The notes under the pieces are model-generated. The model was not told the origin of the DNA. It searched no databases and saw only the letters and a program-made list of their open reading frames with translations. DNA of 17,223 bases, taken from positions 1 through 17,223 of the forward strand of contig QHWL01000071.1 in NCBI GenBank assembly GCA_003222555.1. Direction: 5' to 3'. The translations under genes and the position numbers were made by a program. Source of the DNA: Acidobacteriota bacterium (GTDB lineage: Bacteria > Acidobacteriota > Vicinamibacteria > Vicinamibacterales > CAVVIG01). Of the stretch, positions 474 through 17,223 are shown piece after piece (positions within the stretch are counted from its first letter, which is position 1; each line of letters opens with the position of its first letter).

Positions 474-3122
474 CTACCGTAACCGCGATGTGAAGATCGA
501 ATTGAACAAGAGGCGGAACGTCGCGTGGGACTGCGCGCGATGCTGTGCGCTGAAGCCGAGGAGCACGACGCGGCCTGCGCCCACTCCGAGTTGCACCACG
601 GCGGGTCGATCGGCGATTACCTGCTCTCCTTCCAGCCAGCCGCTCAGGAGGAGATCTTTCGCGCCGTAACGCGCAACAGTCTGCACGTTGTCCAACACAT
701 TCCCAGCTGATTCGCCGCCGTGTCCACCGGTTGGCGACCGCGGCGCGAGGATCTCGTACGCGGAACTGAAGGAAAAAAAGCCGGCCGTGTGGGCGCTCAT
801 GCCGTACGACAGCGGCTGGGATGGGTCGAGCTCGACCCGCAGAATCGATCCAGGACAGAAAAACTTGTCGCTGCCGACCTCTCGCGCCACGTCGCGCAGC
901 GGCAGCTTGAATTCTGCGATCGCGAAACTGCCCGATTGATCGAGGCAGATGAGCGTGCCCCCCGCTTCGACGAACGACTTGATCGCGGCGACGCCACTCT
1001 CGCCCAGCCCGCCGGTGTACTCCGGCGGCACGACGCCGGGTGGGTAGCCGGCCACTAGTCGTTCGGCTGAGGAACTGGGCACGATGATCGCATCGAACTG
1101 CGCGCGCAGGTTGCCGGCGCGCACCTCGGCGTCGCTGACGTTTTTGAACGGGAACTCATAACGCTCGAGCAGCCACCTGGTCCAGCCTTCGTCGGTGTTT
1201 TCTCCCCACGGCTTGTAGAGCGCCACGCGTGCGCGCCTCAGCTGCCACACCGCGGCGGGCGGCTTGCCCTTCACGCCATTGGCGCGCAGGCCCAGTTGTG
1301 TCGCGACCTTGCCGACGATGGGTTCGGAGGCCTTCGAAAAGGGCACGACAAGCGATCCTCGTCCGTACTTGTAGCCGTCGACTTCGAGGTCGCTGGTGAG
1401 CCACGATGTGTTCACCCCGGCTGCAAGCAGCCGATTGACGGCGATTGCGCCGCCGTTGCCCCTCGCGTCGACGACGTAATAGCCGGGGGTGCGATCGCTC
1501 CACACTCTCGCCGGTGGGATGGTTGCCGTCGTCACGCGGGAGGTCGCCGGCGCTTCGAAAGCGCGCTCGATGGCCCGCACGTCGATTCCCATTTGCGCCG
1601 GCAGCGTCCAGCCAGCGACGTCGTAGGGCAGTTCGGGCGGTCCGCCGGGCGACACTCGACGCACCGGGTAGTCTTGTCGCTCGAGCAGCGTCTTCACGTA
1701 CGCGCGATATGGCTGCGCCAAAAGAATCACGTCTGTGCCCGCCGGGTAGGGCTTGTCGTCGGCGCGGAATGGCTCGAGTGCGCGATGAATCTCGATGCCG
1801 CCCTGCAGCAACAGCTCCTCGAGCTTTGCCGTTGCGTGCGGATCCTGCTGGTCGGACGGGATGACGAACGCAAACGGCCCGCCTCGCTTGCCGGCGTCGA
1901 CCGCGCGATGGCCCATGTCGTAGAAGTTCTGAACGATTTGCTCGCGGTAGGCCGACACGGCATGCAGCAGCCCGTGCACCGCGCTCACGTCGTACTCGAC
2001 GATGTCACGCAGCCGCCACGATCCGCCGGGCCACGGCTCGGGAAAAGTAATCTGCGGCTTGTACTCGGGCAGCCCCTTCTGACCGCCGCGCAAATCGAGT
2101 CGCGGCACGTCAATCGGCGTGGCGGTCCTCACGTTGGCGGCCTCCGTCAACAGACACACTGTGTTGTGCCCGAGCGGCGCCGAGTCCTCGTACCCCGGCC
2201 AGTAATAGTCGTACAGCCCGTTCGACAGGACGCCGGTGTGGTGGTCGTGCTGAAGCTGGAGGGTCATCGCGCCGCCGAGGAAGGCAGCTTCGCGCCACAT
2301 GAGGGGATCGTAGTTTGGATCGACCGGATCGTCGTTGGGGGGCGCGAAGAAGCGGGGTCCCGTGCTCTCCATCTGGTGCATCGTGAGGAACACCTGCGGA
2401 TGCCACTGGGTGTAGAAGAACCGCGCGAGGTTCCGGTTCTCCGGCATGTTCATCATGAACGCGTCGCGATTGATGTCGTGGCCGAGGTACTTGTGATCGA
2501 GCCACGGCATGGGACCGCCCTCCAGCGGCGTGCCCTTCTGCTTGTTGTACCAATCGACGACCATACGATGGCCGTCGGGATTGAGCATCGGAATCAGAAT
2601 CACAACGACGTTCTGCAGGATGTCCGTCGTGGCGGGATCGGTCGCCGTCGCCAGCCAGTGCAGCAGATCGTTGGCGGCCTGCGTGGCGCCGATCTCCGAG
2701 GCGTGGATGCTGCATCCGATGGCGAGCACGGCTTTGTGCCCGGCGGCGATCCGGTACGCGTCTTCAGGTGACAAGACGCGCGGATCGGCGAGACGCTGGT
2801 TGTCGGCACGGATCTGTTCGAGGTTCCTGATGTTTTCCGGAGCGCTGACGATTGCCGCGATCGTGCGGTACCCCTCCGTCGTCGGCCCGATGTCGACGAT
2901 CTTCACGCGATCGGACCGCGTCGCGACGAGCTCGAAGTATTTTTCGATTTCCTCCGCCGGCGCGAGGCGTCCGTCGTCGCCCATGCGGAAGCCGAAGTGC
3001 GATTCCGGCGTCGGAACCTGCGCGGCGGCCTGCCGCGCGCCTATCGGAAGCGCGAGCAAGGCGACGCAAAGAATGCTGATGTGCCGGCGTCGAGCGGGTA
3101 ATCGAGGAAGAGAGACCGGCAT
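474..3122 (-). CDS. Secreted M14-family zinc carboxypeptidase with GATase1-like C-terminal domain
   Basis: The product is 882 aa. The start at 3122 gives a clear Sec signal peptide (Arg-rich residues 1-14, hydrophobic 15-29, likely cleavage after AAA at 32-34) and has GGAG five bases upstream. The frame stays open 111 codons further upstream, but that part is a shadow of the neighbouring gene. The peptidase domain spans about residues 50-340. It has the M14 zinc motif HASE (H140, E143), NPDG at 181-184, NRD at 218-220, the third zinc ligand H249 in TMHQME, and a probable catalytic Glu at 327 (LLTEAA). Residues of about 700-860 resemble a glutamine-amidotransferase-like Rossmann domain (GGTLICLDQSG and a terminal GRVVLLGF segment) and probably lack amidotransferase activity. 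M14 enzymes remove C-terminal residues from peptides, and this one should act in the periplasm or outside the cell. It is the last gene of a three-gene operon, 47 bases after the 628-aa protein. The substrate cannot be told from the sequence. Confidence 0.9.
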   Translation of the reverse strand: MPVSLPRLPARRRHISILCVALLALPIGARQAAAQVPTPESHFGFRMGDDGRLAPAEEIEKYFELVATRSDRVKIVDIGPTTEGYRTIAAIVSAPENIRNLEQIRADNQRLADPRVLSPEDAYRIAAGHKAVLAIGCSIHASEIGATQAANDLLHWLATATDPATTDILQNVVVILIPMLNPDGHRMVVDWYNKQKGTPLEGGPMPWLDHKYLGHDINRDAFMMNMPENRNLARFFYTQWHPQVFLTMHQMESTGPRFFAPPNDDPVDPNYDPLMWREAAFLGGAMTLQLQHDHHTGVLSNGLYDYYWPGYEDSAPLGHNTVCLLTEAANVRTATPIDVPRLDLRGGQKGLPEYKPQITFPEPWPGGSWRLRDIVEYDVSAVHGLLHAVSAYREQIVQNFYDMGHRAVDAGKRGGPFAFVIPSDQQDPHATAKLEELLLQGGIEIHRALEPFRADDKPYPAGTDVILLAQPYRAYVKTLLERQDYPVRRVSPGGPPELPYDVAGWTLPAQMGIDVRAIERAFEAPATSRVTTATIPPARVWSDRTPGYYVVDARGNGGAIAVNRLLAAGVNTSWLTSDLEVDGYKYGRGSLVVPFSKASEPIVGKVATQLGLRANGVKGKPPAAVWQLRRARVALYKPWGENTDEGWTRWLLERYEFPFKNVSDAEVRAGNLRAQFDAIIVPSSSAERLVAGYPPGVVPPEYTGGLGESGVAAIKSFVEAGGTLICLDQSGSFAIAEFKLPLRDVAREVGSDKFFCPGSILRVELDPSQPLSYGMSAHTAGFFSFSSAYEILAPRSPTGGHGGESAGNVLDNVQTVARYGAKDLLLSGWLEGEQVIADRPAVVQLGVGAGRVVLLGFSAQHRAQSHATFRLLFNSIFTSRLR

Positions 3123-3169
3123 GACGGCTCCAATCGGCGGCACGTCGTCATGATAGCAGAGCCGCGCGG

Positions 3170-5056
3170 TCAGTCCTTGGGATCGAAGTCGGGCTCTTCG
3201 CCTTCTTCGGTGATTTCCTCCAGTTTGGAAAGCAGCGCTGCGAACCCGCACTGTTCGGGATCGAAGAACCCCCACTCGTCCTGGATCGGCTTCGGTTTTT
3301 TCGCTCGCTTCGTCGGTTTCTTGCCGGATGGGGCCGCCGGCGTCGGCGCCCGCCCTTCCTTGGGCTTTGCCGAGACAACCGGCGGCGCTGCCTGGTCGCG
3401 TCCGGAGCGGAGACGTTCGACGTCGAGTCGAAGCGAGTCGATCAGCTCGAGCCATTCCTGGCGTTTGGCAGCGGCGACGATCGGGGCTGGTGCCGGTGGC
3501 CTGACGGCTGGAGCAGGCTGAGGTTGAGCGACGACGACAGCCTCTTTGGGCCCAGGCGCGGAAGGCGTTCGTGTAAAGCCGGAAACTACCCCTGGCTTCG
3601 GTTTGGCGGCCACGACGGGGGCCGGTGCCGCTGGCCTGACGACCGGAACGGGCTGAGGTCGGGCAACGACGGCAGCCCCTTTGGGCAGGTCAGACTCAGA
3701 AGCGGTCCGGCCGAAGCCGACGCCTGCCCTCGGTTTGGCGGCGACGACGGTCGGGGCCGGAGCCGGTGCCCTGACGGCCGGAACGGGTCGAGCGACGACG
3801 GCAGCCTCTTTCGGCGCCAGAGGCGCCGACGGTACCTTCGGCTTTGCGGCGACCACGATCGGCGCTGGCGCCGGCGGCCTGGCGGGCGGAACAGCCTGAG
3901 GCCGAGCGACGACGAGGGCCTCTTTGGGCGATTGAGCAGGAGGCTGTGCCTTCGGTTTGGCAGCGACGACGACCGGCACTCGTGCCGGCGGCCTGACGAC
4001 CGGAAGGGGCTCACGTCGAGCCGGGACCGCAGGTTCTTCAGGTTCGAGCACCTCCGGAGCCGCTTCGGCCTGCACGCCCTCGAGACGAGGCCACGATCGA
4101 CGCGACATCCACAGTTCGCTCTTGGACGCCTGGGGCCCTTCGATCGCTGGGGCCTGGGGCGCCGACGCGACCGCAGGAGCTTCACCGCGTTCATCGTGGA
4201 AGAGCGCCTCGAGCGCAGCATCCGAGGAGGCGTCGAGCAGCTGGTCCGAAAGATCGATGACGTCTTCGGAGTTCGCCGCCACGGTGCCTGCGGCCTTGAC
4301 GGCCGGCGTTTTCGTCTCATAGAACAGTCCCAGAATCGTTGACCGTTTGACCGAGATGGGCTCGACGACCAGCAGCTCGTCGGGGACTGGTGCTCCGGGG
4401 GCGGCGTCAACTTCGATCCGTTCAGCGAGTGCCGGGTCGATGGCGGCGACCGGTTCGATGGCCGGCGCGAGTCCTTGGTAAACCGGCGCCTTGAGAGATG
4501 GCGCCGCGGCTTGCAAATGTTCGGAGGATTGTTCGGTGGGCTCCGACACGTTGCCAGCGGGCGCGTCGAACTCGGCCAACGGGTCGAACGCTGCTTCCCG
4601 ATCGGCGGGCCCGTCGTACTCGGTCAACGGATGGAACGGCGCTTCTTCTCTCTCGGCACGCTCGGCGGCCGCCTCTTTGAGGTAATCCGAAATTTGCTCC
4701 CCGAAGACCGCGGGATCGCAACCATCGGGCGCGGCTGTCTCGGCGCCGCCTCGCCGCCACTTCGCCAGCACGCCTCCAGGGCTTTTGCGTTTCGTCGTGT
4801 TCCCGAGAACTGGAGTCGTCAGGATGCGTACGTGGGCGGCCGCTGCGATAACGCGCAGCGCTCCCGCGAGCGCCGCGTCGTCCTGCGGCGAGAGCAGCGC
4901 AGGGACCAGGACGAGATCAGGCACCCGGTTGCCGATGGCGTCGAGCGCGTGTGCGGTCGTGTCGGCCAGCAGCAGCTCCGCGCCGACACGCCGGATCACA
5001 CCCGTGAGCTGGGCGGCCTGGCGCCGGTCCGGTTGGATGGCGAGAATGAGGGGCAT
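3170..5056 (-). CDS. Receiver-like N-terminus, Pro/Ala-repeat protein, function unknown
   Basis: The product is 628 aa with no signal peptide. Residues 1-85 look like a CheY-type receiver fold: alternating strands and helices with LILAIQPD at 3-10 and PDLVLVPALLS at 46-56. The phospho-acceptor Asp expected at the end of the third strand is replaced by Val-Pro, so it is probably a pseudo-receiver. Residues 135-170 contain two similar acidic phrases (FHPLTEYD and FDPLAEFD). Residues 350-530 are about five imperfect repeats of the type VVARPxPxPxxRPPAPAPxVVAAKPK. A short amphipathic helix follows at 533-553, then a Lys-rich stretch at 578-590 and an acidic, conserved-looking C-terminus (DEWGFFDPEQCGFAALL). 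The layout suggests a scaffold whose folded ends are joined by a stiff linker. It starts one base after the 90-aa membrane gene (TAG-A-ATG) and lies divergent from the Tad genes. A role with the pilus is inferred from context only. Confidence 0.75.
   Translation of the reverse strand: MPLILAIQPDRRQAAQLTGVIRRVGAELLLADTTAHALDAIGNRVPDLVLVPALLSPQDDAALAGALRVIAAAAHVRILTTPVLGNTTKRKSPGGVLAKWRRGGAETAAPDGCDPAVFGEQISDYLKEAAAERAEREEAPFHPLTEYDGPADREAAFDPLAEFDAPAGNVSEPTEQSSEHLQAAAPSLKAPVYQGLAPAIEPVAAIDPALAERIEVDAAPGAPVPDELLVVEPISVKRSTILGLFYETKTPAVKAAGTVAANSEDVIDLSDQLLDASSDAALEALFHDERGEAPAVASAPQAPAIEGPQASKSELWMSRRSWPRLEGVQAEAAPEVLEPEEPAVPARREPLPVVRPPARVPVVVAAKPKAQPPAQSPKEALVVARPQAVPPARPPAPAPIVVAAKPKVPSAPLAPKEAAVVARPVPAVRAPAPAPTVVAAKPRAGVGFGRTASESDLPKGAAVVARPQPVPVVRPAAPAPVVAAKPKPGVVSGFTRTPSAPGPKEAVVVAQPQPAPAVRPPAPAPIVAAAKRQEWLELIDSLRLDVERLRSGRDQAAPPVVSAKPKEGRAPTPAAPSGKKPTKRAKKPKPIQDEWGFFDPEQCGFAALLSKLEEITEEGEEPDFDPKD
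3467..4009 (-). repeat. Degenerate in-frame tandem repeats coding a Pro/Ala-rich linker
   Basis: About five imperfect units of roughly 100-135 bases encode residues 350-530 of the 628-aa protein. Each unit carries an RPPAPAP-like core followed by VVAAKPK and usually a PKEA(V)VVARP joint. Units differ in length and at many third positions, so they are old or under drift rather than freshly copied. Recombination between units could change the linker length between strains. Confidence 0.8.
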
Positions 5057-5057
5057 T

Positions 5058-5330
5058 CTAGGTTCGCAGCATGAACACGAAGACCACGCCCGAAGCGAGG
5101 ACGAAGAACAAGAGCGTCGTTTGCTCGGCGCTCAGACCCCTGGCGGTTTCCGTCACAACCCTGGTGTAAGAGCGCAAGCGGCTAGCGGCGTCAGCCACCT
5201 GCGCCGCCGGCGGTGTCGAGAGCCATAACGAGACCTGCCCACGAACGCGGGCATCGAAGGTCACGAGCGTCAGCAGCACGATCGCCAACGCCCCTATCGA
5301 CAAGAGCGTTTCGACCCTGGCGCGTCGCAT
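5058..5330 (-). CDS. Small protein with two predicted membrane segments, function unknown
   Basis: The product is 90 aa. The ATG at 5330 has a strong ribosome site on the minus strand, AAGGAG at 5345-5340, nine bases before the start. Residues 8-24 and 71-88 are hydrophobic and probably span the membrane. The region of about 25-70 between them is polar and helix-prone (QVADAASRLRSYTRVVTETARGL), so a hairpin topology with a small loop domain is likely. I do not recognise a family. It is the first gene of the minus-strand operon, 33 bases downstream of the predicted start site of a sigma-54-type promoter. It touches the 628-aa gene with a one-base gap. That coupling suggests it anchors the soluble 628-aa protein at the membrane, which is inference only. 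Confidence 0.75.
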   Translation of the reverse strand: MRRARVETLLSIGALAIVLLTLVTFDARVRGQVSLWLSTPPAAQVADAASRLRSYTRVVTETARGLSAEQTTLLFFVLASGVVFVFMLRT

Positions 5331-5374
5331 GGTGCGTCACTCCTTCCCCGAGACACTCGGACGATCTCTAGCTC

Positions 5375-5389
5375 GCAATTGTCGTTCCG
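5375..5389 (-). promoter_or_regulatory. Probable sigma-54 promoter of the minus-strand operon
   Basis: Read on the minus strand, the site is CGGAACGACAATTGC. It keeps the invariant GG (5388-5387) and GC (5376-5375) with exactly ten bases between, and matches 9 of the 11 conserved bases of TGGCACG-N4-TTGC. Transcription would begin about 12 bases on, near 5363, leaving a leader of about 33 bases that contains the AAGGAG of the 90-aa gene. The fit of position and spacing makes chance less likely, but the match is not perfect. Confidence 0.55.
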
Positions 5390-5540
5390 CCGGGCGGTGC
5401 AAGGCCCGCAATCGGTCCTGAAACCGTTGATCCACGCTAATCCGCGGCCACTTTGTGCGAGATCGGGCAGAAAGCGGCGCGCGAATGCTCCGTTTTGACA
5501 CGGGCCGCTTCGCACGAATTTCGCGGGCGCCGTTACGAAT

Positions 5541-5568
5541 GTGCCGCCAACCGACGTCGAGGCGGCAC
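5541..5568. promoter_or_regulatory. Perfect inverted repeat, candidate enhancer-binding-protein site
   Basis: GTGCCGCC at 5541-5548 is repeated exactly in inverted form as GGCGGCAC at 5561-5568, with a 12-base spacer that itself holds CGACGTCG. The centre lies about 70 bases upstream of the -24 element facing flp1 and about 166 bases from the -24 element facing the other operon. NtrC-type activators of sigma-54 RNA polymerase normally bind dyads at such distances. It could also simply form a hairpin, and the activator is not encoded in this window. Confidence 0.5.
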
Positions 5569-5623
5569 GGGATTCAAGACACAAGGCGAGCACCTTACGC
5601 GCTCTAAACCCACCCACGTCGCG

Positions 5624-5638
5624 TGGCACGACGGTTGC
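5624..5638 (+). promoter_or_regulatory. Sigma-54 (RpoN) promoter of the flp/tad operon
   Basis: The site TGGCACGACGGTTGC agrees with the -24/-12 consensus TGGCACG-N4-TTGC at every conserved base. GG is at 5625-5626 and GC at 5637-5638, with the required ten bases between. The start of transcription would fall near 5650, about 80 bases before the flp1 ATG. Sigma-54 promoters need an ATP-dependent activator, so pilus expression would be tightly switched. An upstream inverted repeat is a plausible activator site. Confidence 0.75.
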
Positions 5639-5729
5639 GGTTCGACTCTGTGTCGCGCGGTCGTGCAAGGAAGCATGACCGTATATCGGACACACGGCAT
5701 GGCGTCAATGACGACGCGCGGAGAACTTC

Positions 5730-5912
5730 ATGGATCTCATCATCAGCCGTCTGCGTCAGCTCACCGGCAACGACGAAGGACAGGACTTGCTCGAGTACGC
5801 ACTGCTCATCGCGCTCATCGCTCTCGTGGCTGTCGCCGCGGTGGCATTCGCGGGCTCGCAGGTGAACATCATCTTCAAGAATATCGGGAATCAACTCGCG
5901 GCCGTCGTCTAA
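5730..5912 (+). CDS. flp: Flp-type type IVb prepilin, copy 1
   Basis: The product is 60 aa. The ATG at 5730 has GGAG six bases upstream. The leader is residues 1-17 and ends in Gly; the expected cleavage is G17/Q18. The mature part begins QDLLEYALL, with Glu at +5 and Tyr at +6, the Flp signature, followed by one hydrophobic helix (about 24-42) and a short tail ending NQLAAVV. Flp monomers polymerise into the thin Tad pilus after cleavage by the TadV prepilin peptidase. The mature peptide is only 43 aa, at the small end typical of Flp pilins. It is first in the operon, downstream of the sigma-54 promoter, and is probably the most abundant product together with copy 2. Confidence 0.95.
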   Translation: MDLIISRLRQLTGNDEGQDLLEYALLIALIALVAVAAVAFAGSQVNIIFKNIGNQLAAVV

Positions 5913-5956: not shown

Positions 5957-6139
5957 ATGAATCTCGTACTGCACCGTCTGGGTCGATTCACGGGCAACGA
6001 CGAAGGGCAGGACTTGCTCGAGTACGCCCTGCTCATCGCGCTCATCGCTCTCGTCGCCGTCGCCGCCGTGGCATTCGCCGGCTCGCAAGTGAACACGATT
6101 TTCCAGAATATCGGGAATCAACTCGCGGCCGTAGTCTAA
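5957..6139 (+). CDS. flp: Flp-type type IVb prepilin, copy 2
   Basis: The product is 60 aa and is a close paralogue of the preceding gene. The ATG at 5957 has GGAG six bases upstream. The leader again ends NDEG (cleavage G17/Q18), and the mature part has QDLLEYALL with Glu +5. It differs from copy 1 in the mature region only at residues 47 (Ile to Thr) and 50 (Lys to Gln). The two pilins probably co-assemble or substitute for each other in the same Tad pilus. The gene follows copy 1 after 44 bases without a promoter of its own that I can see. Confidence 0.95.
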   Translation: MNLVLHRLGRFTGNDEGQDLLEYALLIALIALVAVAAVAFAGSQVNTIFQNIGNQLAAVV

Positions 6140-6272: not shown

Positions 6273-6449
6273 ATGCCAGCAGTTATCGCCGCTTTGCTCA
6301 AGCGGCTGGTCGTGCGCGACGACGGGCAGGATCTCCTGGAATACGGACTTCTCATCACGCTGATCGCTCTCGTCGCGATGGCGGCCGTTTCGAGCCTCGG
6401 CAGCACGATCAACACCGTGCTATGGCAACCGATTGCCAGCAGTTTCTGA
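6273..6449 (+). CDS. flp: Flp-type type IVb prepilin, divergent third copy
   Basis: The product is 58 aa. I chose the ATG at 6273, preceded by GAGG five bases upstream, over an in-frame TTG at 6171 that would run through the hairpin and give an implausible Cys/Arg-rich extension. The leader ends RDDG (cleavage G18/Q19), and the mature part has QDLLEYGLL with Glu +5 and Tyr +6, then a hydrophobic helix. The tail differs from copies 1 and 2 (WQPIASSF instead of NQLAAVV). It may be a minor pilin or a pilin used under other conditions. Its 3' end overlaps the start of the prepilin peptidase gene by 17 bases. Confidence 0.9.
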   Translation: MPAVIAALLKRLVVRDDGQDLLEYGLLITLIALVAMAAVSSLGSTINTVLWQPIASSF

Positions 6450-6945
6450 GGCCATCGTCGTTTGCACGGTGGTCGCGAGCGTCGGCGCGAGCGCCGTCGT
6501 CGACGTGTACACGCGACGCGTGCCGAATCCGCTGACCCTCGGAATCGCCGCGGTCGGAGTCGCCATGGCGGCGACCCACGTGAGCGGCGTCAGTGTCGTG
6601 GGCGCGTTCGCCGGATTCGCTCTGGGGCTGCTCCTGATGCTTCCCGGCCATCTGATTGGCGCCACGGGAGGCGGCGACGTGAAGCTGTTCGCCGCGGTCG
6701 GCACGCTGCTCGGCCCGTCGCGGATCGGGATGGCGTTTCTTTATACCGCGATGGCCGGCGGCGCGCTTGCGATGGTGATTGCGCTCCGGCGGCGGCGGTT
6801 CGGCGCAACGATGGAGCGGACTGCCGCTCTCGTGTGCACAGGCGGGGCCAATGTCGCTGAAATCGAAGGACCATCCGCCGACAACCGATTCGCGTACGCG
6901 CCGGCGATTGCCGTTGGTGCGATCGTGGCAGCGTTGGGTGGCTGA
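6433..6945 (+). CDS. tadV: Prepilin peptidase TadV/CpaA (A24 aspartic protease)
   Basis: The product is 170 aa, a usual length for CpaA. It is an integral membrane aspartic protease that removes the leaders of the Flp prepilins at the Gly/Gln bond. Both A24 motifs are visible: D24 in VVDVYTRRVPNPLT, and GGGD at 79-82 followed by VKLF. About five hydrophobic segments are present (roughly 8-23, 34-50, 54-72, 98-117 and 152-169). The start is TTG at 6433, inside the end of flp3, with no good ribosome site, which suggests translational coupling. The next candidate, GTG at 6469, would cut into the first membrane segment. It has no N-methylation domain, as expected for the short Tad-type enzyme. 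Confidence 0.9.
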   Translation: MPAVSEAIVVCTVVASVGASAVVDVYTRRVPNPLTLGIAAVGVAMAATHVSGVSVVGAFAGFALGLLLMLPGHLIGATGGGDVKLFAAVGTLLGPSRIGMAFLYTAMAGGALAMVIALRRRRFGATMERTAALVCTGGANVAEIEGPSADNRFAYAPAIAVGAIVAALGG

Positions 6946-6977
6946 GGTGAACGAAACGCAGTTCTAGAGGATCTCTT

Positions 6978-7823
6978 ATGACTCGCATACGCGTGTTCAT
7001 CGTGCTCGTTCTGGCCATCACGGCCGGCGGCGCATTCGCGCTTGGCACCTACAACTACGTGCAGAACCTGCCAACGCAAACCACGACGATTCCGACGAAG
7101 CCTGTCGTCGTCGCGGCTTCCGATCTCGACGTCGGCGCCGAGCTTTCGAAGGACAACATCAGGATCATCCAGTGGCCGGCCAACGCCGTGCCGACCAATG
7201 TGATCAGCGATCCCAAGGATGTGATTGGCCGCGGCCTGATCCTGCCCATGATTCAGAACGAGCCGTTCCTGCCGATGAAGCTGGCGTCGGCGGAGGCAGG
7301 CGCGGGGCTGCCGCCGGCGATTCCCCCGGGGCTGCGGGCGTTGTCGATCAAGGTCAACGAGGTCATCGGAGTGGCGGGCTACGTGCTGCCCGGAACGCGG
7401 GTCGATGTCCTGGTCACGGTCAGCCCGGGCCAGGGTGGTCAGGGCGACGTGACCTCCAAAGTCATTCTCACCAACGTCCAGGTAGTGGCCGCGGGCACCA
7501 AGATCGATCGCGAGACGGATAAGAACAAGCCGATGGCGGTGACCGTGGTCACGGTTCTCGTCACTCCCGAAGAATCCGAACGTCTGACGCTTGCGAGCAC
7601 CGAAGGAAAAATCCAGCTTGCGCTGCGCAACCCGCTGGACAAGGCGACGCCGCTTACCCGCGGGATTCGGCAGTCGGCGCTGCTCGGTGTGCCCGCGACG
7701 ACGCCGAGGGCGACGGTGCGGGTGGCAGCGGCAGCCAAACCCCTGCCTCTCCCTCTTGATGCAGCGACGGTTGAAATCATCCGCGGCGACAAGCGCGCAC
7801 GTGAAGCCGTGCGTCAGGAGTAA
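6978..7823 (+). CDS. cpaB: Flp pilus assembly protein CpaB/RcpC
   Basis: The product is 281 aa. The ATG at 6978 has AGAGGA upstream. Residues 7-27 form an N-terminal membrane anchor or uncleaved signal. Residues 42-104 are an SAF domain (PVVVAASDLDVGAELSKDNI and EPFLPMKL), and 117-218 are the RcpC-type domain (ALSIKVNEVIGVAGYVLPGTRVDVLVT). The end, TVEIIRGDKR, is typical of the family. CpaB is periplasmic and is thought to link the inner-membrane machine to the CpaC secretin. It lies 32 bases after tadV and three bases before the secretin gene. Confidence 0.95.
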   Translation: MTRIRVFIVLVLAITAGGAFALGTYNYVQNLPTQTTTIPTKPVVVAASDLDVGAELSKDNIRIIQWPANAVPTNVISDPKDVIGRGLILPMIQNEPFLPMKLASAEAGAGLPPAIPPGLRALSIKVNEVIGVAGYVLPGTRVDVLVTVSPGQGGQGDVTSKVILTNVQVVAAGTKIDRETDKNKPMAVTVVTVLVTPEESERLTLASTEGKIQLALRNPLDKATPLTRGIRQSALLGVPATTPRATVRVAAAAKPLPLPLDAATVEIIRGDKRAREAVRQE

Positions 7824-7826
7824 CTA

Positions 7827-9809
7827 ATGGCGAGCAATGGTCAGAGACATCAAGGGCGCCGGGACAGCCGACGTACGGCGGCCTGGATCGTCATTTTAAT
7901 CATCGCGGTTTTCCGCTCCACCACGCTGTATGCCCAGGCGCCCGCGGTGCCGGCGGCGACGATAGCCGCCAACAGGGCCGAGGCCGCGCCGGCGGAAGTG
8001 GAGGCGCAAGCCCTGCGGGTGCTCGTCGGCCGCTCGGCGATCGTCGACACCGGCGCGTCGATCGCGCGCGTGTCGCTGACGAGCGCCGACATCGCGGACG
8101 CGCTCGTCACCTCGCCGAGCCAGCTGCTCGTCAACGGCAAAATGCCGGGCACCATCTCCATGTTCGTGTGGGATCGGGCCGGGGCGGTTCGCCGGTATGA
8201 AGTGATCGTGCAGCGAGATCTCTCGCGCCTGAGCGAACAGGTCAAGCGGCTGTTTCCTGGCGAGGCAATCGAGGTGCAGAGCAACGGCCGGAACGTCGTC
8301 GTCTCCGGCCTCGTCTCGAGCAAGGACGTCATCGAGAAGGCCGTCAACGTCGCCGCCGGCTACGTCGAGAAGAAAGAGGAAGTCGTCTCGCTGCTGCAGA
8401 TCCGTGAGGACGGCGCGAGCAACCAGGTGCTGCTGCGCGTCCGTTTCGCTGAGGTGAGCCGCACCGCGGTGTCAGAGCTTGGCGCCTCGTATGTCACGAG
8501 CCCGACCGGAATCAAGAACAACATCGTCCGCGCGACGACCCAGCAATTCGCCGCGCCGACCATAAGCGACATGGCTTGGACCAAGGCGAACGACAAATTT
8601 GGCAGCGACGTCACCGGCGCATCGGGGAAGATTTCGTTCAGCGATTTTCTGAACTTCTTTCTCTTCAATGAGAAGTATGACATCGGCATAATGATCAAGG
8701 CGCTCCAGACTCGAGGACTGTTCCAAACCCTTGCCGAACCGAATCTCGTCGCCGAGAGTGGAAAGGAAGCGAGCTTCCTGGCCGGCGGAGAGTTCCCGGT
8801 ACCCATCGCTCAGGGGTCTGGCGGGTCCGTGTCCATCTCGGTGATGTTCAAGGAGTTTGGCATCCGGTTGAATTTCACCCCGGTTGTGACCGGCAACCGC
8901 GTTCACCTCAAAGTACGGCCCGAGGTCAGCGCGCTCGACTTCAGCAACGCCGTCGTCCTGAATGGATTCCGGATTCCCGCGCTCACCACGCGACGTACCG
9001 AGACGGAAATCGAGCTCCTCGACGGACAGACGTTTGCCGTCGCCGGGTTGCTCAACAGCTCCATGAACTCGACGCTGCAGAAGATTCCCGGCATCGGCGA
9101 CATCCCGATTCTCGGGAAGCTCTTCCAAAGCAAGCAAGCTCAGAAAGATCGAACCGAGCTCGTGGTGATTATCACGCCGCAGATCCTGGCGAGGAACTCG
9201 ACCGGCGTCACCTCCGATCTTCCGCGGATGGCAGAGCCGTTCCTGCCGCCGATTTCGGAGAAGCAATCGGCTCCGCTGCCGCCGCCGGCATTCACGCGGC
9301 CGCCCGGCTCGGTCAACGACACGACCACGGCACCGGTGCCCGCAGTGCGCAGGGGTCCCGACGGCAAAGCGCTCGACCCGGCCGCCGCGGCCGCCGCGCT
9401 GACCGCGCTGTCACCGAAGGCGCGGACGGTGGTGAACGGCGATGCCACCCCGAAATCGCAGGACGGGCAGGCGTCGAGCGTGGCGCGTCCGCTCACCTCT
9501 GACGAGAAGAAGGCGCTGGAGCGCGCCCGCAAACAGGAAGACGCCGCGAAGGCCGCCGAGGCCGCCCAGGCGAGCAAGCAGTACCTGGCAGACCGCCGCA
9601 AGCAGGTGGCGGACCAGGAGCGACTGGCGGCATTGTCGCGCGAGCAGGCGAGGCGCGACGGGGAAGCGGCCCGCCGTGCGGCCGAACAAGCGAAGCGGCA
9701 GGCCGAAACCGACCAGAAACGGCAGAAGGTCATCGCCGAGGCCGAGGCGCGCCTCAAGGCGGCGGAAGCCAGGTATAAGGCCGAGGTCGCACAGAAGGAC
9801 AAGCCCTAA
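7827..9809 (+). CDS. cpaC: Secretin CpaC/RcpA with unusual coiled-coil C-terminal extension
   Basis: The product is 660 aa. Residues 17-36 are a signal peptide (cleavage near LYAQA). Residues 63-130 are the pilus N-domain (RVLVGRS...), 133-195 a BON-like domain, and about 285-455 the secretin domain (QTRGLFQTLAEPNLVAESGK, AGGEFPVP, the GLLNSS...KIPGIGDIPILGKLF signature, and ELVVIITPQIL). It should form the outer-membrane pore through which the Flp pilus leaves. CpaC proteins usually end soon after the secretin domain. Here a Pro/Ala-rich linker (about 455-555) and about 100 residues of continuous Ala/Glu/Lys/Arg coiled coil (556-656) follow. No frameshift is needed: the frame is clean and ends at a TAA nine bases before tadZ. 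The extension could be a periplasmic or surface stalk, which is inference. Confidence 0.95.
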   Translation: MASNGQRHQGRRDSRRTAAWIVILIIAVFRSTTLYAQAPAVPAATIAANRAEAAPAEVEAQALRVLVGRSAIVDTGASIARVSLTSADIADALVTSPSQLLVNGKMPGTISMFVWDRAGAVRRYEVIVQRDLSRLSEQVKRLFPGEAIEVQSNGRNVVVSGLVSSKDVIEKAVNVAAGYVEKKEEVVSLLQIREDGASNQVLLRVRFAEVSRTAVSELGASYVTSPTGIKNNIVRATTQQFAAPTISDMAWTKANDKFGSDVTGASGKISFSDFLNFFLFNEKYDIGIMIKALQTRGLFQTLAEPNLVAESGKEASFLAGGEFPVPIAQGSGGSVSISVMFKEFGIRLNFTPVVTGNRVHLKVRPEVSALDFSNAVVLNGFRIPALTTRRTETEIELLDGQTFAVAGLLNSSMNSTLQKIPGIGDIPILGKLFQSKQAQKDRTELVVIITPQILARNSTGVTSDLPRMAEPFLPPISEKQSAPLPPPAFTRPPGSVNDTTTAPVPAVRRGPDGKALDPAAAAAALTALSPKARTVVNGDATPKSQDGQASSVARPLTSDEKKALERARKQEDAAKAAEAAQASKQYLADRRKQVADQERLAALSREQARRDGEAARRAAEQAKRQAETDQKRQKVIAEAEARLKAAEARYKAEVAQKDKP

Positions 9810-9818
9810 GGCATTGCC

Positions 9819-10988
9819 ATGGCACAACTGGTGGGTCTGATCGTCAGCAATGACGATGGCTTCAAGAAGCATGTCGAACGGCTCCTCCGATCGGGAGCGA
9901 TTCCGGTCAGCGTGATGGACGATCGGGCGGCGCGCGACGGCGCGCCGCCCGATCTCGTCATCGTGGACACGCGCGGCGACGTCTCGTCGGCGATGCCGGG
10001 TATCGAACGGCTGCGCGCGTCGGCGCCAGGCGCGGGCATTTTCGCCATCGCGCTCGAGGCGGATCCCGATGTCATCCTGCAATCGATGCGCGCCGGGGCG
10101 AACGAGTTCTTCACCTGGCCGCCCGATGAGGAAACCTTTCACGGCGCCGTCCGGCGCACGGCGGCGCGGCGAGAAACCTCGCAGGGCGCACGCCCGTCGG
10201 CGACGACGCTGGTGTTTTTCGGCGCCAAGGGCGGCGCCGGCACGACGACCGTGGCCGTGAACAGCGGCGTTGAGGTCGCGCGCTTGAGTAAACGCTCGAC
10301 GATCATCATCGATCTGAAACCGGGACTCGGCGAAGTCGCCCTGTTTCTCGGCGTTCGTCCGAGGTACAGCATTCTGGATGCGATCGACAATCTGCATCGG
10401 CTGGACAAAGAGTTCCTGCGCGAGCTCGTCGTCAAGCACAAGTCGGGCCTCGAGATTCTCTCCGGATCCGATCAGTTCGACCGGCCGGGCGCCCCCGACG
10501 GCGGCGCGCTCGAAGAGCTGTTCCGCCTGCTCGCGCGCCAGTACGAGTACATCGTCATCGACGCCGGCAGCCAGATCAATTCGTGCACGGTTGCGGCGCT
10601 CTACACCGCCGATCAGATGTTCCTCATCGCCAACCCCGACGTGCCATCGATCCGCAACGCCCAACGGCTGCTCGAGCGCGTGCGCCAGCTCGGGGCGTGC
10701 GGCGAGCGCGTGCGCGTGGTGCTCAACCGGGCGGCGGAGCCGTATCCGATTCCACCCAAGCAGATTGAGGCCGCGCTCGGTCATCCGATTCATCAGACGT
10801 TTCCCAGCGACTACAAGACGGTTTCAACCGCGCTCAACTCGGGCGTGCCGCTCGCGCTGACCGGCAATTCCGACATCGCCTCGCAGTTCGATGTGTTCAC
10901 GCGGAAGATCCTCGATCCGGCGGCCGAATCGCCGCAAGCGGCCAACGCCAAAGCGTCCCGGCTCCAGCGCATCGCGTCGATCTGGTAA
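9819..10988 (+). CDS. tadZ: Tad pilus localisation ATPase-like protein TadZ/CpaE
   Basis: The product is 389 aa. Residues 1-115 are an atypical receiver domain (LIVSNDDG at 7-14, a possible acceptor Asp at 50 in VIVDTRG). Residues 128-365 are a MinD/ParA-type fold with a deviant Walker A, KGGAGTTT at 137-144, in which the P-loop Lys of GKT is replaced by Thr. The Asp of IIIDLKPG (165) and the Walker B YIVIDAG (D248) are kept. TadZ proteins bind at the cell pole or membrane and mark the site of Tad assembly. Several known members have degraded ATPase motifs, so nucleotide binding may survive with weak hydrolysis. AAGG lies seven bases before the ATG. It sits between cpaC and cpaF, the usual order. 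Confidence 0.92.
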   Translation: MAQLVGLIVSNDDGFKKHVERLLRSGAIPVSVMDDRAARDGAPPDLVIVDTRGDVSSAMPGIERLRASAPGAGIFAIALEADPDVILQSMRAGANEFFTWPPDEETFHGAVRRTAARRETSQGARPSATTLVFFGAKGGAGTTTVAVNSGVEVARLSKRSTIIIDLKPGLGEVALFLGVRPRYSILDAIDNLHRLDKEFLRELVVKHKSGLEILSGSDQFDRPGAPDGGALEELFRLLARQYEYIVIDAGSQINSCTVAALYTADQMFLIANPDVPSIRNAQRLLERVRQLGACGERVRVVLNRAAEPYPIPPKQIEAALGHPIHQTFPSDYKTVSTALNSGVPLALTGNSDIASQFDVFTRKILDPAAESPQAANAKASRLQRIASIW

Positions 10989-10994
10989 ACAACC

Positions 10995-12350
10995 ATGACT
11001 TCTGTTGGCACAACCGTCGCACCCCTCTCGACACTCCCGTCGGGGCCCGCTTCAGGGCCCAAGCTGCCGGCTCCGCGCGCCGGATACCTGGAGCTCAAGG
11101 CCAACATCCATCGCAAGCTGCTCAACCGCCTGAACCTCGAGGCGCTGGCGCAGTCGGATCGTGCGCGCGCCGAGAGCGAGATACGGACCGTGCTCGGTCA
11201 GCTGCTCGCCGAAGAAGGCGCGCCGCTCAGCCTCGGCGAGCGCGAGGGGTTGTTCGTCGAGCTGCTCGACGACGTGTTCGGGCTGGGGCCGCTGGAGCCG
11301 CTGCTGCGCGACCCGTCCATCAGCGATATTCTCGTCAACACGCACAAGAACGTGTTCGTGGAGCGCGCCGGCCAGCTGGAGCGCGTCGCGGCCCAGTTCC
11401 AGGACGATCGCCATCTGATGCGCGTCATCGATCGGATCGTGAGCGCGGTCGGCCGCCGGATCGACGACAGCTCGCCAATGGTCGACGCGCGACTGCCCGA
11501 CGGCTCGCGCGTCAACGCGATCATTCCGCCGCTGGCGGTGGACGGCCCGATCGTCTCGATTCGCCGCTTTCCGGCCGAACGGCTCAAGGCCGAGGATCTC
11601 GTGACGCTGCGCGCGTTGACCCGTCCGATGCTCGACTTCCTCGCGCACTGCGTGCGCGCACGCCTCAACTGCCTCATCAGCGGCGGCACCGGCTCCGGCA
11701 AGACGACGCTGCTGAACGTGTTGTCGAGTTTTGTTTCCGAACGCGAGCGCATCGTCACCATCGAGGACGCGGCGGAACTGCAGCTGCGTCAGGAGCACGT
11801 CGTGCGCCTGGAGACGCGGCCGCCCAACGTGGAAGGGAAAGGCACCGTTCGCCAGCGCCAGCTCGTCATCAACGCCCTTCGTATGCGCCCCGATCGCATC
11901 ATCATCGGAGAGGTGCGCGGTGAAGAGGCGCTCGACATGCTGCAGGCGATGAATACCGGTCACGACGGATCGTTGACGACCGTCCACGCCAACACTCCTC
12001 GCGACGCGCTCGGCCGAATCGAGACGATGATCGCGATGGGCGCCATCAACCTGCCCGAGCGCGCCATGCGGCAGCAGATGTCGTCGGCCATCCAGATCGT
12101 CGTGCAGCAGACCCGTCTCAGCGACGGCACACGCAAAATCTCGAGCGTGTCGGAGATCACCGGCATGGAAGGCGAAGTGATCACGATGCAGGAGATCTTC
12201 GTGTTCGAGAAGATGGGGGTCACGCAGGACGGCAAGGTGATCGGCCGGTTCCGCGCGACGGGCGTGCGGCCGAAGTGCTGCGAGCGTCTGAAGGCATCGG
12301 GCATCCATCTTCCGGCCGACATGTTCGAAGGCGTGACGGAGGTGCGGTGA
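10995..12350 (+). CDS. cpaF: Secretion ATPase CpaF/TadA
   Basis: The product is 451 aa, within the normal size range. It is the hexameric cytoplasmic motor that hydrolyses ATP to drive Flp pilus assembly. Seen in order are an N-terminal helical domain (30-110), the conserved [13 protein letters not shown] segment, Walker A GTGSGKTT (231-238, Lys 236), the Asp box [10 protein letters not shown] (D258), the R-rich PPNVEGKG loop (276-283), Walker [11 protein letters not shown] (302-311) and the His box [12 protein letters not shown] (322-333). All motifs look intact. It starts six bases after tadZ, and its TGA shares one base with the tadB ATG (TGATG), so the two are translationally coupled. Confidence 0.97.
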
Positions 12351-13324
12351 TGTTTTTGGCAATTCTCGTGTTTCTGTTGGTCGCGGGCACGATCGTCGGC
12401 GCGTACGCCGCGGTGGTGTACCTGCCTGGCTTCCTCGCGGGTCGACGGCTCGATCAGCGGCTGCAGGAGGTCTCGTTCGACCCTCCGCCGGTGGATGCGG
12501 GGTCGACGGACACGACTCTGGTCAAGGACACGAGCCAGGGTCCCCTCCCAGGCGTCGATCGACTCATTTCTGACACGCGGGCCGGATCGTGGATGGCGAA
12601 GTTGATCGAGCAATCGGGCACGCGCACGACCCCGAGCGCCGTGGCCATCATCAGTCTGGTCGCCGCAATCGTTGGCGGCTCCCTGATGTCGTTGTTCGTC
12701 CAGCAGGCATTCGCGGTGGCGCTGGCCGCCCTGGTGTTCGGGTTCGCGCCGTTTGGCTGGCTCCTGCACCGGCGGACCAAGCGGATCAAGCGCTTCGAAG
12801 AGCAGTTCCCCGAAGCGCTGGACCTGCTGTCGCGCGCGATCCGTGCCGGGCACGCGTTGCAGACGGCCATGGGAATGGTCGCCGACGAGCTGCCCGACCC
12901 GGTCGGGCCCGAGTTCAGGAAGACCTTCGATCAGCAGAACTACGGGCTGCCGCTGCGCGACGCCCTGGAGGATATGTCTCTCCGCATGCCGGTGCTCGAC
13001 GTGCGCTTTTTCGTGACGGCCGTGCTCATTCAGCGCGACACCGGCGGCAATCTGGCGGAAATTCTCGACAACCTCGCCCATGTGGTTCGCGAGCGCTTCA
13101 AGATCCGGCGCCAGGTGCGCGTGCACACGGCTCATGGCCGATTCACCGGATGGGTTCTGCTCGCGCTGCCCGCCGCGCTCGCCGTCGCGCTCTCCTTCAT
13201 CAACCCGGACCACATGAACCTGCTGTTTCATGAGCATTCGGGCCAGATGCTGCTCCTCGCCGCAGCGGTCATGCAATTCATCGGGTTCATCTGGATTCGC
13301 CAGGTGATCAAGATCGAGGTGTAA
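12350..13324 (+). CDS. tadB: Inner-membrane platform protein TadB
   Basis: The product is 324 aa. I chose the ATG at 12350, which overlaps the cpaF stop by one base and has GGAGG seven bases upstream; the frame stays open 25 codons further but without a better start. Membrane segments are at about 3-24, 97-115, 119-139, 266-284 and 298-317. A T2SS protein F domain lies between about 150 and 280 with FPEALDLLSRAIRAGHAL at 153-170. TadB forms the inner-membrane platform with TadC and contacts the CpaF ATPase. It ends two bases before tadC. Confidence 0.95.
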   Translation: MFLAILVFLLVAGTIVGAYAAVVYLPGFLAGRRLDQRLQEVSFDPPPVDAGSTDTTLVKDTSQGPLPGVDRLISDTRAGSWMAKLIEQSGTRTTPSAVAIISLVAAIVGGSLMSLFVQQAFAVALAALVFGFAPFGWLLHRRTKRIKRFEEQFPEALDLLSRAIRAGHALQTAMGMVADELPDPVGPEFRKTFDQQNYGLPLRDALEDMSLRMPVLDVRFFVTAVLIQRDTGGNLAEILDNLAHVVRERFKIRRQVRVHTAHGRFTGWVLLALPAALAVALSFINPDHMNLLFHEHSGQMLLLAAAVMQFIGFIWIRQVIKIEV

Positions 13325-13326
13325 TC

Positions 13327-14235
13327 GTGACGATGCTTCTTCCGCTTCTCGGATTCCTTTTCGTGTCGCTGCTGGTGACGGCTGCCGCGATGGCGCTCTC
13401 ACCCGCCGCCGTCGGAACAATTGAACGCCGTCTGGGGGAATTCACCGGCGCGCGTCCCAAGGAAGTCGCCGAGGATTCCGGATACGAGCGCGTCATGATC
13501 GAGTCGTTGAAGCGCATCGGCGCCGCCGCGCCGCATTCCTCGTCAGAGATGGGGAAGCTGCAGCAAAAGCTCCTGTGGGCGGGGTATCGGAGCCACGATG
13601 CGATCGCGGTTTTCTTCGGCATCCGGATCGCCTGTGCGCTGCTCGGCTTCGCGCTGCTGGCCAGCCCGATTCTGATCCACCCGAGTCTCGTCCTTGCGCT
13701 CGGCGCCTGCGGCATCGGCTATCTGCTGCCGAGCATGGTACTCGGCCGGCTCGCGAAGCGCCGTCAGCACCGCATCCGCCTCGGGCTGCCCGACGCGCTC
13801 GATTTGCTCGTCGTCAGCGTCGAAGCCGGCCTGGGCCTCGATCAAGCCATCCAGCGCGTCGGCGAAGAGCTGGCGTTCGCGCACAAGGACTTGGCAGACG
13901 AGCTGCGGCTGATCAATCTCGAGTTGCGCGCCGGCAAGGCGCGATCCGAGGCGCTTCACAATCTCGCCGAGCGCACCGGCCTGGACGACATTCAATCGCT
14001 CGTCGCCATGCTGGTGCAGACCGACAAGTTCGGCACGAGCGTGGCGCAGTCGCTCCGGGTCCACTCCGACACGGTCCGGACCAAGCGCCGTCAGCGCGCC
14101 GAGGAAGCGGCGGCCAAGACCGGCGTGAAGATGGTGTTTCCCCTGGTGTTCTGTATTTTTCCGGCCATCTGGGTCGTGACGATCGGGCCGGCCGCAATCA
14201 AGTTCGTCCAGGTGCTGGGTCCAATGAACAAATGA
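13327..14235 (+). CDS. tadC: Inner-membrane platform protein TadC
   Basis: The product is 302 aa. The GTG at 13327 has GAGG seven bases upstream; an ATG two codons later is the alternative. Membrane segments are near 4-24, 93-115, 119-139 and 270-292. The T2SS-F domain covers about 150-280 with LPDALDLLVVSVEAGLGLDQAI at 154-175 and GVKMVFPLVFCIFPA near the end, as in TadC proteins. It partners TadB. Its TGA overlaps the start of the AAA+ ATPase gene (ATGA), so that gene is probably translated by re-initiation. Confidence 0.95.
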   Translation: MTMLLPLLGFLFVSLLVTAAAMALSPAAVGTIERRLGEFTGARPKEVAEDSGYERVMIESLKRIGAAAPHSSSEMGKLQQKLLWAGYRSHDAIAVFFGIRIACALLGFALLASPILIHPSLVLALGACGIGYLLPSMVLGRLAKRRQHRIRLGLPDALDLLVVSVEAGLGLDQAIQRVGEELAFAHKDLADELRLINLELRAGKARSEALHNLAERTGLDDIQSLVAMLVQTDKFGTSVAQSLRVHSDTVRTKRRQRAEEAAAKTGVKMVFPLVFCIFPAIWVVTIGPAAIKFVQVLGPMNK

Positions 14236-17097: not shown

Positions 17098-17110
17098 CGG
17101 GTAACGCAAT

Positions 17111-17222
17111 AAGAATGCAAGAATGCACGAATGCAAAAACGCACGAATGCACGAAACCACAAATGCTCGAATGCACATGCACCAATGGCAAAATGGTCGC
17201 CATTCGTGCATTCATGCATTTG
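17111..17222. repeat. AATGCACG-type degenerate repeats with inverted outer arms
   Basis: Short words of the form GAATGCAC repeat at steps of about 8 bases from 17113 to 17176. The last 22 bases carry the same words inverted (CATTCGTGCATTC). Bases 17114-17134 pair with 17201-17220 almost completely, and AATGGC/GCCATT forms a smaller stem near 17184-17204. The element begins 14 bases upstream of the Smr start and ends near the window edge, so its full size is unknown. Confidence 0.65.
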
Positions 17223-17223
17223 A

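Follow-up and report, generated by a model that had tools for sequence, protein, structure and literature searches.

Conserved back-to-back sigma-54-type promoter sites between a Tad pilus operon and a predicted pseudo-receiver operon in one order of Acidobacteriota

The window (the whole 17,223-nucleotide stretch of DNA that was analysed, from a fragmented assembly of 784 contigs that is 82% complete) contains two divergent operons separated by an intergenic region of 399 bp. On the right, three pilin-type genes precede a full set of Tad machinery genes, and this content identifies a Tad/Flp pilus locus, with the pilins falling below the Pfam cut-off. On the left lie genes for a 90-aa protein, a 628-aa protein and a peptidase. 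The features, in window coordinates, are as follows.

474..3121, minus strand: M14 zinc carboxypeptidase family protein, the third gene in the window's lineage only
3170..5056, minus strand: 628-aa protein with a predicted receiver fold at residues 1-130, a low-complexity middle and the C-terminal motif DEWGFFDPEQCGFAALL
5058..5330, minus strand: 90-aa small protein, first gene of the divergent operon, with hydrophobic stretches close to its two termini and RVR invariant
5389-5375, minus strand: 90-aa-facing sigma-54-type -24/-12 site, CGGAACGACAATTGC (CGGAACG-ACAA-TTGC, 9/11), predicted start near 5363
5514-5543, plus strand: shared two-part element, a putative activator-binding enhancer, ACGAAWT-N12-TTACGAATGTG, conserved in the family alignment
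5624-5638, plus strand: flp-facing sigma-54-type -24/-12 site, TGGCACGACGGTTGC (TGGCACG-ACGG-TTGC, 11/11), predicted start near 5650
5657-5682, plus strand: hairpin of the predicted flp leader, with covariation among relatives; the window's copy has 10 pairs and an AAGGAA loop
5730..5912, plus strand: flp pilin 1 (Pfam Flp_Fap below cut-off)
5957..6139, plus strand: flp pilin 2 (Pfam Flp_Fap below cut-off)
6273..6449, plus strand: flp-like pilin 3, resembling pilins 1 and 2 and present in relatives
6433..14235, plus strand: Tad machinery (prepilin peptidase A24, CpaB/RcpC, secretin, CpaE, TadA, TadB, TadC)

In three related loci (L043, L045 and L049), the genes between those for the secretin and CpaE were read, from sequence only, as TadE/G-like or vWA-like. 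The window closes at the contig end with short repeats around AATGCACGA (17105-17223), at which the assembly probably broke. On the left side, the M14 protein probably starts at the ATG at 3121, which opens a signal-peptide-like sequence, rather than at the ATG at 3455 of the listed frame, which overlaps the 628-aa gene.

Neither the 90-aa nor the 628-aa protein matched a Pfam (E ≤ 0.001) or NCBIfam (E ≤ 0.1) family. A copy of the 90-aa protein was recognisable in 15 of the 16 loci of the window's family (the exception being L048), and RVR was invariant in a 15-row alignment. Relatives of the 628-aa protein were found in 20 of 27 family genomes, and its first 130 residues matched in 49 out of 162 genomes of the order. 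No receiver-like gene was found outside the order: in a draw of 396 genomes from the phylum, all 10 matches (E ≤ 1e-6) lay inside it. The N-terminus was modelled with a mean AF2 pLDDT of 71.8; Foldseek gave 12 matches with E ≤ 0.001, of which 11 carried titles of response regulators or receivers. A sequence search of the PDB gave a LacI-type protein as the best match (E 0.0043) and response regulators as the other six (E 0.17-0.69), while a profile comparison gave a weak match with true receivers (Prob 3%, E 0.014) and none with the N-termini of CpaE. Ten of 15 receiver-domain rows weakly matched Pfam Fis1_TPR_C (best E 0.0035), an identity that was set aside because the predicted fold is that of a receiver. 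The acceptor Asp at the end of strand 3 is absent; the aligned register has Pro at this place, and its column has Pro, Ala, Ser or Thr across a 15-row alignment of the protein, and we therefore call the domain a pseudo-receiver. Thus, the earlier note's description of the 628-aa protein as receiver-like applies to residues 1-130 by predicted fold, the sequence likeness being weak and the acceptor Asp missing. The pseudo-receiver domain of CikA (5jyu) was among the fold matches, and a receiver fold would be common to both; unlike CikA, the 628-aa protein continues from this domain into a low-complexity linker and a C-terminal EWGFFDP-CGF motif, and no Pfam family matched it over its full length.

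This tail motif is conserved among the 628-aa relatives. The expression EWGFFDP-x2-CGF-x-ALL, or a close variant (3170-3300 in the window), also ends small separate proteins at L056:1063-1338, near position 746 of L057 and in L190, and in L056 and L057 a GG-N10-GC site with TTGC lies 35-36 nt ahead of a possible start codon. In L185-L189, small proteins that matched the C-terminus of the 628-aa protein did not fit the motif expression. The motif looks like a docking tail.

RpoN promoters carry a -24/-12 consensus, TGGCACG-N4-TTGC, in which GG and GC are 10 bases apart. Both sites lie where the earlier note had placed them, have the 10-base spacing and agree with what it had reported, namely a match at every consensus base (11/11) for the flp-facing site and a 9/11 match for the 90-aa-facing site, whose mismatches are the T and the first C. 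The leader that had been described for the 90-aa gene was likewise recovered: with the ATG at 5330, preceded by AAGGAG, and a predicted start near 5363, it would span about 33 nt and include a ribosome site. When up to two mismatches were allowed, the window contained 9 consensus matches, compared with 8.1 expected, so that the 90-aa-facing site taken alone carries no weight. The window's own genome (4.8 Mb) contained 5 perfect matches, compared with 4 for the reversed pattern, i.e. no enrichment. A sigma-70 scan of positions 2900-5760 returned no match, a result that says little because just 0.1 match was expected.

We compared the arrangement across 37 loci from 37 different genomes, which represent nine families of a single Acidobacteriota order (16 loci from the window's family, the window counted, and 21 from eight other families). 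A locus was included if a receiver-like gene had flp within about 1 kb upstream, back to back; since the loci were thus selected for the receiver gene, its presence beside flp is not independent evidence. Contig-end loci (L128, L134 and L152) were excluded, as were the Tad loci L159, L161, L162 and L163, in which the stretch stops before or right at flp. Twelve receiver loci without flp linkage were kept out of the 37 and are reported separately below, several weak matches also stand outside the set, and L160, which has the paired sites and lacks the receiver gene, was counted apart. Promoter counts were compared with shuffles that preserve dinucleotides and, as a second control, with the reversed pattern on the real sequences.

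On the flp-facing side, a GG/GC site scoring at least 9/11 was found in all 37 loci (range 9-11 of 11), and in 36 of them it was combined with TTGC (shuffle mean 1.2, maximum 5; reversed control 1). The sole exception was L140, in which TTGC is replaced by ATGC (TGGCACGCCCGATGC). On the 90-aa-facing side, a GG site with TTGC scoring at least 8/11 was likewise present in 37 out of 37 loci (shuffle mean 4.2, maximum 9; reversed control 3), and 27 loci reached at least 9/11 (shuffle mean 1.5, maximum 4; reversed control 0). Scores on this side ranged from 8 to 10 and were never 11, and the canonical T and C of TGGCAC were missing in most loci. Two sites tied at 8/11 in L131, one of them at the expected place, and in L042 and L043 the site ended just 12 nt ahead of the assigned 90-aa ATG, so that the starts there would be leaderless or mis-assigned. 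In the family alignment, whose median pairwise identity was 50%, the columns of the sites showed 97-100% majority identity, compared with 53% elsewhere in the region. The GG and GC positions, the loss of which in relatives with the same gene order the earlier note had named as the point to watch, are therefore kept in 37 out of 37 loci, with the single TTGC change on the flp side of L140. Shuffles, the reversed control and the held-out families together rule out chance or base composition as the origin of the sites, and the proposal of divergent sigma-54-type promoters is strongly supported by their conservation across the 37 loci.

The left-hand site also keeps its position before the first gene when the genes themselves change. 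In L144, a site of the 90-aa type lies 28 nt ahead of the receiver gene, which leaves no space for the 90-aa gene, and in L160 (genome G110, no receiver match) the 90-aa gene and both sites persist beside flp. Moreover, 9 of the 12 receiver paralogues unlinked to flp (L145, L146, L148, L149, L150, L151, L155, L055 and L130) had their own GG-N10-GC site with TTGC within 150 nt, compared with 0.25 in shuffles, and in L130 the paralogue and a cpaE gene point away from each other, with two outward sites present there too. These results suggest that a wider family of pseudo-receivers under putative sigma-54 control exists in the order.

As a control, 16 Tad regions were compared. Five were of the same Tad type; the other eleven, which come from both inside and outside the window's family within the order, were of a second type that is only distantly related, its CpaE being about 34% identical. 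A flp match lay within range in 10 of the 11 second-type regions. None of these 10 flp promoters had a flp-facing site of at least 9/11 with TTGC within 450 nt, and none of the 10 loci had an opposed site of at least 8/11 with TTGC within 1500 nt. Lesser or unusual matches were present in L165 and L172 (8/11 with TTGC, about 90 nt ahead of flp), in L173 (8/11 with TTGC at 16 nt) and in L167 (9/11 without TTGC at 343 nt), and some second-type loci may be under sigma-54 control. Judged from these comparisons, the paired arrangement is a mark of one Tad lineage.

Alignment of the family loci brought out a further conserved feature between the two sites, which was absent from the earlier note. It consists of two halves, ACGAATT (5514-5520) and TTACGAATGTG (5533-5543), and contains a direct repeat of ACGAAT at 21 bp, equal to two helical turns; no palindrome was seen. 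The 21 loci of the other families served as a held-out test, and in 15 of them the second half (at least 9/11) lay 126-141 nt away from the flp-facing site (shuffle expectation 0.01). Overall, the element was recognisable (at least 9/11) in 32 out of 37 loci and not recognisable in five. Its distance from the flp-facing GG was 127-142 nt in 29 of the 32, and that from the 90-aa-facing GG was 130-134 nt in 16, the remaining 16 ranging from 78 to 333 nt. The window, at about 92 and 146 nt, respectively, is not the tidiest example. Enhancers of the NtrC class generally lie roughly 80-200 bp from the promoter, and the sites of NtrC-type activators are usually palindromic, a direct repeat not being typical. 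The element is thus conserved at a constrained distance as an enhancer would be, tightly on the flp side and more loosely on the other.

We also searched the 27 family genomes for the bipartite pattern, allowing a single mismatch. It occurred 10 times, at nine such loci (9 of the 16 family loci) and once in G001, so that a site of regulon-wide use was rejected. In G001, the element is followed by CGGAACGCGCCTTGC, a small protein with the C-terminal motif of the 628-aa protein and an M14 gene, with CGGAACG-N4-TTGC recurring ahead of the motif protein. No close CpaE match was found in this genome (best E 2.2e-7), which indicates that the left side of the arrangement can exist without the pilus. 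The exact 13-mer GTTACGAATGTGC was seen elsewhere in four copies within a tandem array of about 125-bp units in G007 (L157:4000-4520) and in one copy on G022:C10, away from the Tad locus (L158, near 3229-3241).

Downstream of the predicted flp start, by about 7-32 nt, lies the hairpin. Of the 37 leaders that were folded, 18 (16 from the family, L125 and L156) were aligned and L124 was left out. In this alignment, 88.3% of the cells were paired and 6 of the 10 pairs had changes on both sides, and the covariation score was matched by 0 of 500 shuffles, although rows and structure were chosen by hand and relatedness inflates such scores. The number of further pair types was unexceptional (reached in 141 of 500 shuffles), leaders of other families differ in appearance from the family hairpin, and Rfam gave no match at the gathering threshold. 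The covariation supports the idea that this stretch is transcribed, while the sequence may instead be a DNA dyad.

RpoN is encoded in the window's own genome, and its DNA-binding domain was detected in 22 of the 27 family genomes; the five in which it was not found are fragmented assemblies and include three with paired sites (G014, G020 and G022). The own genome gave 29 Sigma54_activat matches, 18 of them over 200 bits, the weak ones being unspecific since the same search produced matches in all 14 control genomes. No NtrC-type activator gene was found within the flp-linked loci (the window, those among L040-L059 and the loci of other families), and the one such gene among L040-L059 was in L055, a locus without a flp match. 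A dedicated activator gene inside or adjoining the tad operon was thus discarded for the flp-linked loci. An orphan NtrC-type regulator of 463 aa is a weak candidate. In 6 of the 16 downstream stretches (L191, L194, L195, L199, L201 and L202; in L195 at 12766-14157), it is located about 7-12 kb beyond DUF192 on the contig that carries the Tad locus, next to genes that read from their sequence as dihydrolipoamide dehydrogenase-like. L192 has a partial match, the orthologue of that genome being on a different contig, and the window's genome has a partial copy that is 87% identical (G000:C514:566-1615). The regulator was found order-wide, also where this Tad type is absent, and its co-occurrence therefore does not single it out.

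These observations can be brought together in a model, to which we assign a probability of about 0.85, in which the intergenic region is a two-way sigma-54 region with two promoters and one central enhancer, and one activator switches the pilus operon and the 90-aa/pseudo-receiver operon together. RNA polymerase bearing RpoN would occupy the two back-to-back -24/-12 promoters and start transcription at both, and an activator of the NtrC class would bind the central element, ACGAAWT-N12-TTACGAATGTG. By DNA looping in either direction, over a distance that is typically about 130 bp, the protein bound there would activate both promoters, so that a single activator may serve both directions and both operons would be switched on at the same time. 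The earlier note had proposed that the 90-aa, 628-aa and M14 genes are all expressed together with the pilus. For the 90-aa and 628-aa genes, the conservation of sites and element gives good support to co-regulation with the pilus, and this part of the proposal stands as a sequence-based prediction. The M14 gene fared differently. Among the 16 family loci, it comes next after the 628-aa gene in 3, namely the window, L040 and L053, and gives a partial match in L045; it was not found in eight (L042, L043, L046-L050 and L052), and L041, L044, L051 and L054 end too soon to be judged. It also follows related genes in L055 and L056, both without a flp match. Because it occurs in few of the 16 family loci, we regard it as lineage-specific.

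The earlier note had also suggested that the products of the left-hand genes may act in the pilus, which is a fair guess; our own guess is that the 90-aa and 628-aa proteins are most likely accessory or feedback parts of the same surface-attachment programme and not building blocks of the pilus. More tentatively, and at somewhat less than even odds, one locus-specific enhancer at near-equal distances from both promoters might fix the ratio between the pilus and the two-protein module, so that the module, which would be new, could sense or limit assembly and be one member of a broader, order-specific group of pseudo-receivers under sigma-54 control. A competing explanation, also plausible without being probable, accepts that the promoters are real and co-regulated and supposes that the divergent genes are unrelated to the pilus, sharing activator and element merely through adjacency. 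The persistence of element, promoter, motif protein and M14 gene in G001, which is without this Tad type, would be expected under such an arrangement, as would the sigma-54-type sites of receiver paralogues in flp-less stretches. On the other hand, the arrangement beside flp is kept in nine families (with loci selected for the receiver gene), and the paralogue in L130 is divergent from cpaE with two sites. Furthermore, five genomes had a close CpaE and no receiver match, and L160, the only one of these loci to extend past flp, keeps the pair of sites and the 90-aa gene.

The two-way sigma-54 region has also to be weighed against the idea that the conserved blocks are the site of another regulator or sigma factor that resembles the -24/-12 pattern. 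The lack of genome-wide enrichment of 11/11 matches over the reversed control is compatible with this, but the letters that are conserved follow the RpoN consensus (GG, GC, TTGC and GGCAC), the blocks face outward at both ends with a conserved element at a distance, and the genomes encode RpoN and many activator-type genes, all of which make another regulator improbable. Marginally less credible still is that only the flp-facing promoter is sigma-54-dependent and the left site is degenerate or silent, with the left operon transcribed otherwise: left scores of 8-10 that never reach 11, letters mostly off the canonical TGGCAC and the two loci (L042 and L043) with a site too near the start codon fit this, whereas the presence of a left GG site with TTGC in 37 out of 37 loci, its place before the first left gene in L144 and the recurrence of CGGAACG-N4-TTGC ahead of the motif protein in G001 speak against it.

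Control of a Tad pilus by sigma-54 is already known in kind from Desulfovibrio vulgaris, in which, according to the available part of the report, the sigma-54-dependent response regulator DVU2114 targets Tad-type pilin genes; their machinery is said to resemble cpaA-F/Tad most closely (PMC3333781). The likeness to the present locus lies in sigma-54-type control of such pilin genes; that system is from another phylum, and in the same part of the report neither a divergent partner operon nor a central shared element is described. The available text also lists PilR/sigma-54 control of pilA in Pseudomonas, Myxococcus and Geobacter (PMC3333781). The present locus resembles these in having a pilin gene under sigma-54 and, as inferred here, an NtrC-type activator, and it differs from them in being a Tad/Flp locus with a two-way region. 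The PilR/pilA systems concern type IVa pili, with sigma-54, an NtrC-type activator and a one-way promoter. In Pseudomonas aeruginosa, the tad locus is reportedly controlled by PprB, which is said not to be an RpoN activator system; dedicated control of flp-tad transcription would be shared with the present locus, and the divergent pseudo-receiver operon is found in the latter and is not known from PprB/tad. No RpoN promoter for flp is given in the accessible portions of PMC4371752, PMC5234846 and PMC4260858. In the literature searched, as far as its text was available, neither the control of Tad pili by sigma-54 in Acidobacteria nor a paired divergent sigma-54/Tad arrangement was described.

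The conserved, predicted two-way sigma-54 region defines a directly testable regulon and ties two uncharacterised protein families to the pilus programme. It may also be a natural example of a single enhancer acting on two sigma-54 promoters at fixed distances, the central element being the putative binding site of the activator for both. Taken together, the results suggest that in this acidobacterial lineage the Tad/Flp pilus shares its programme with the 90-aa and 628-aa proteins.
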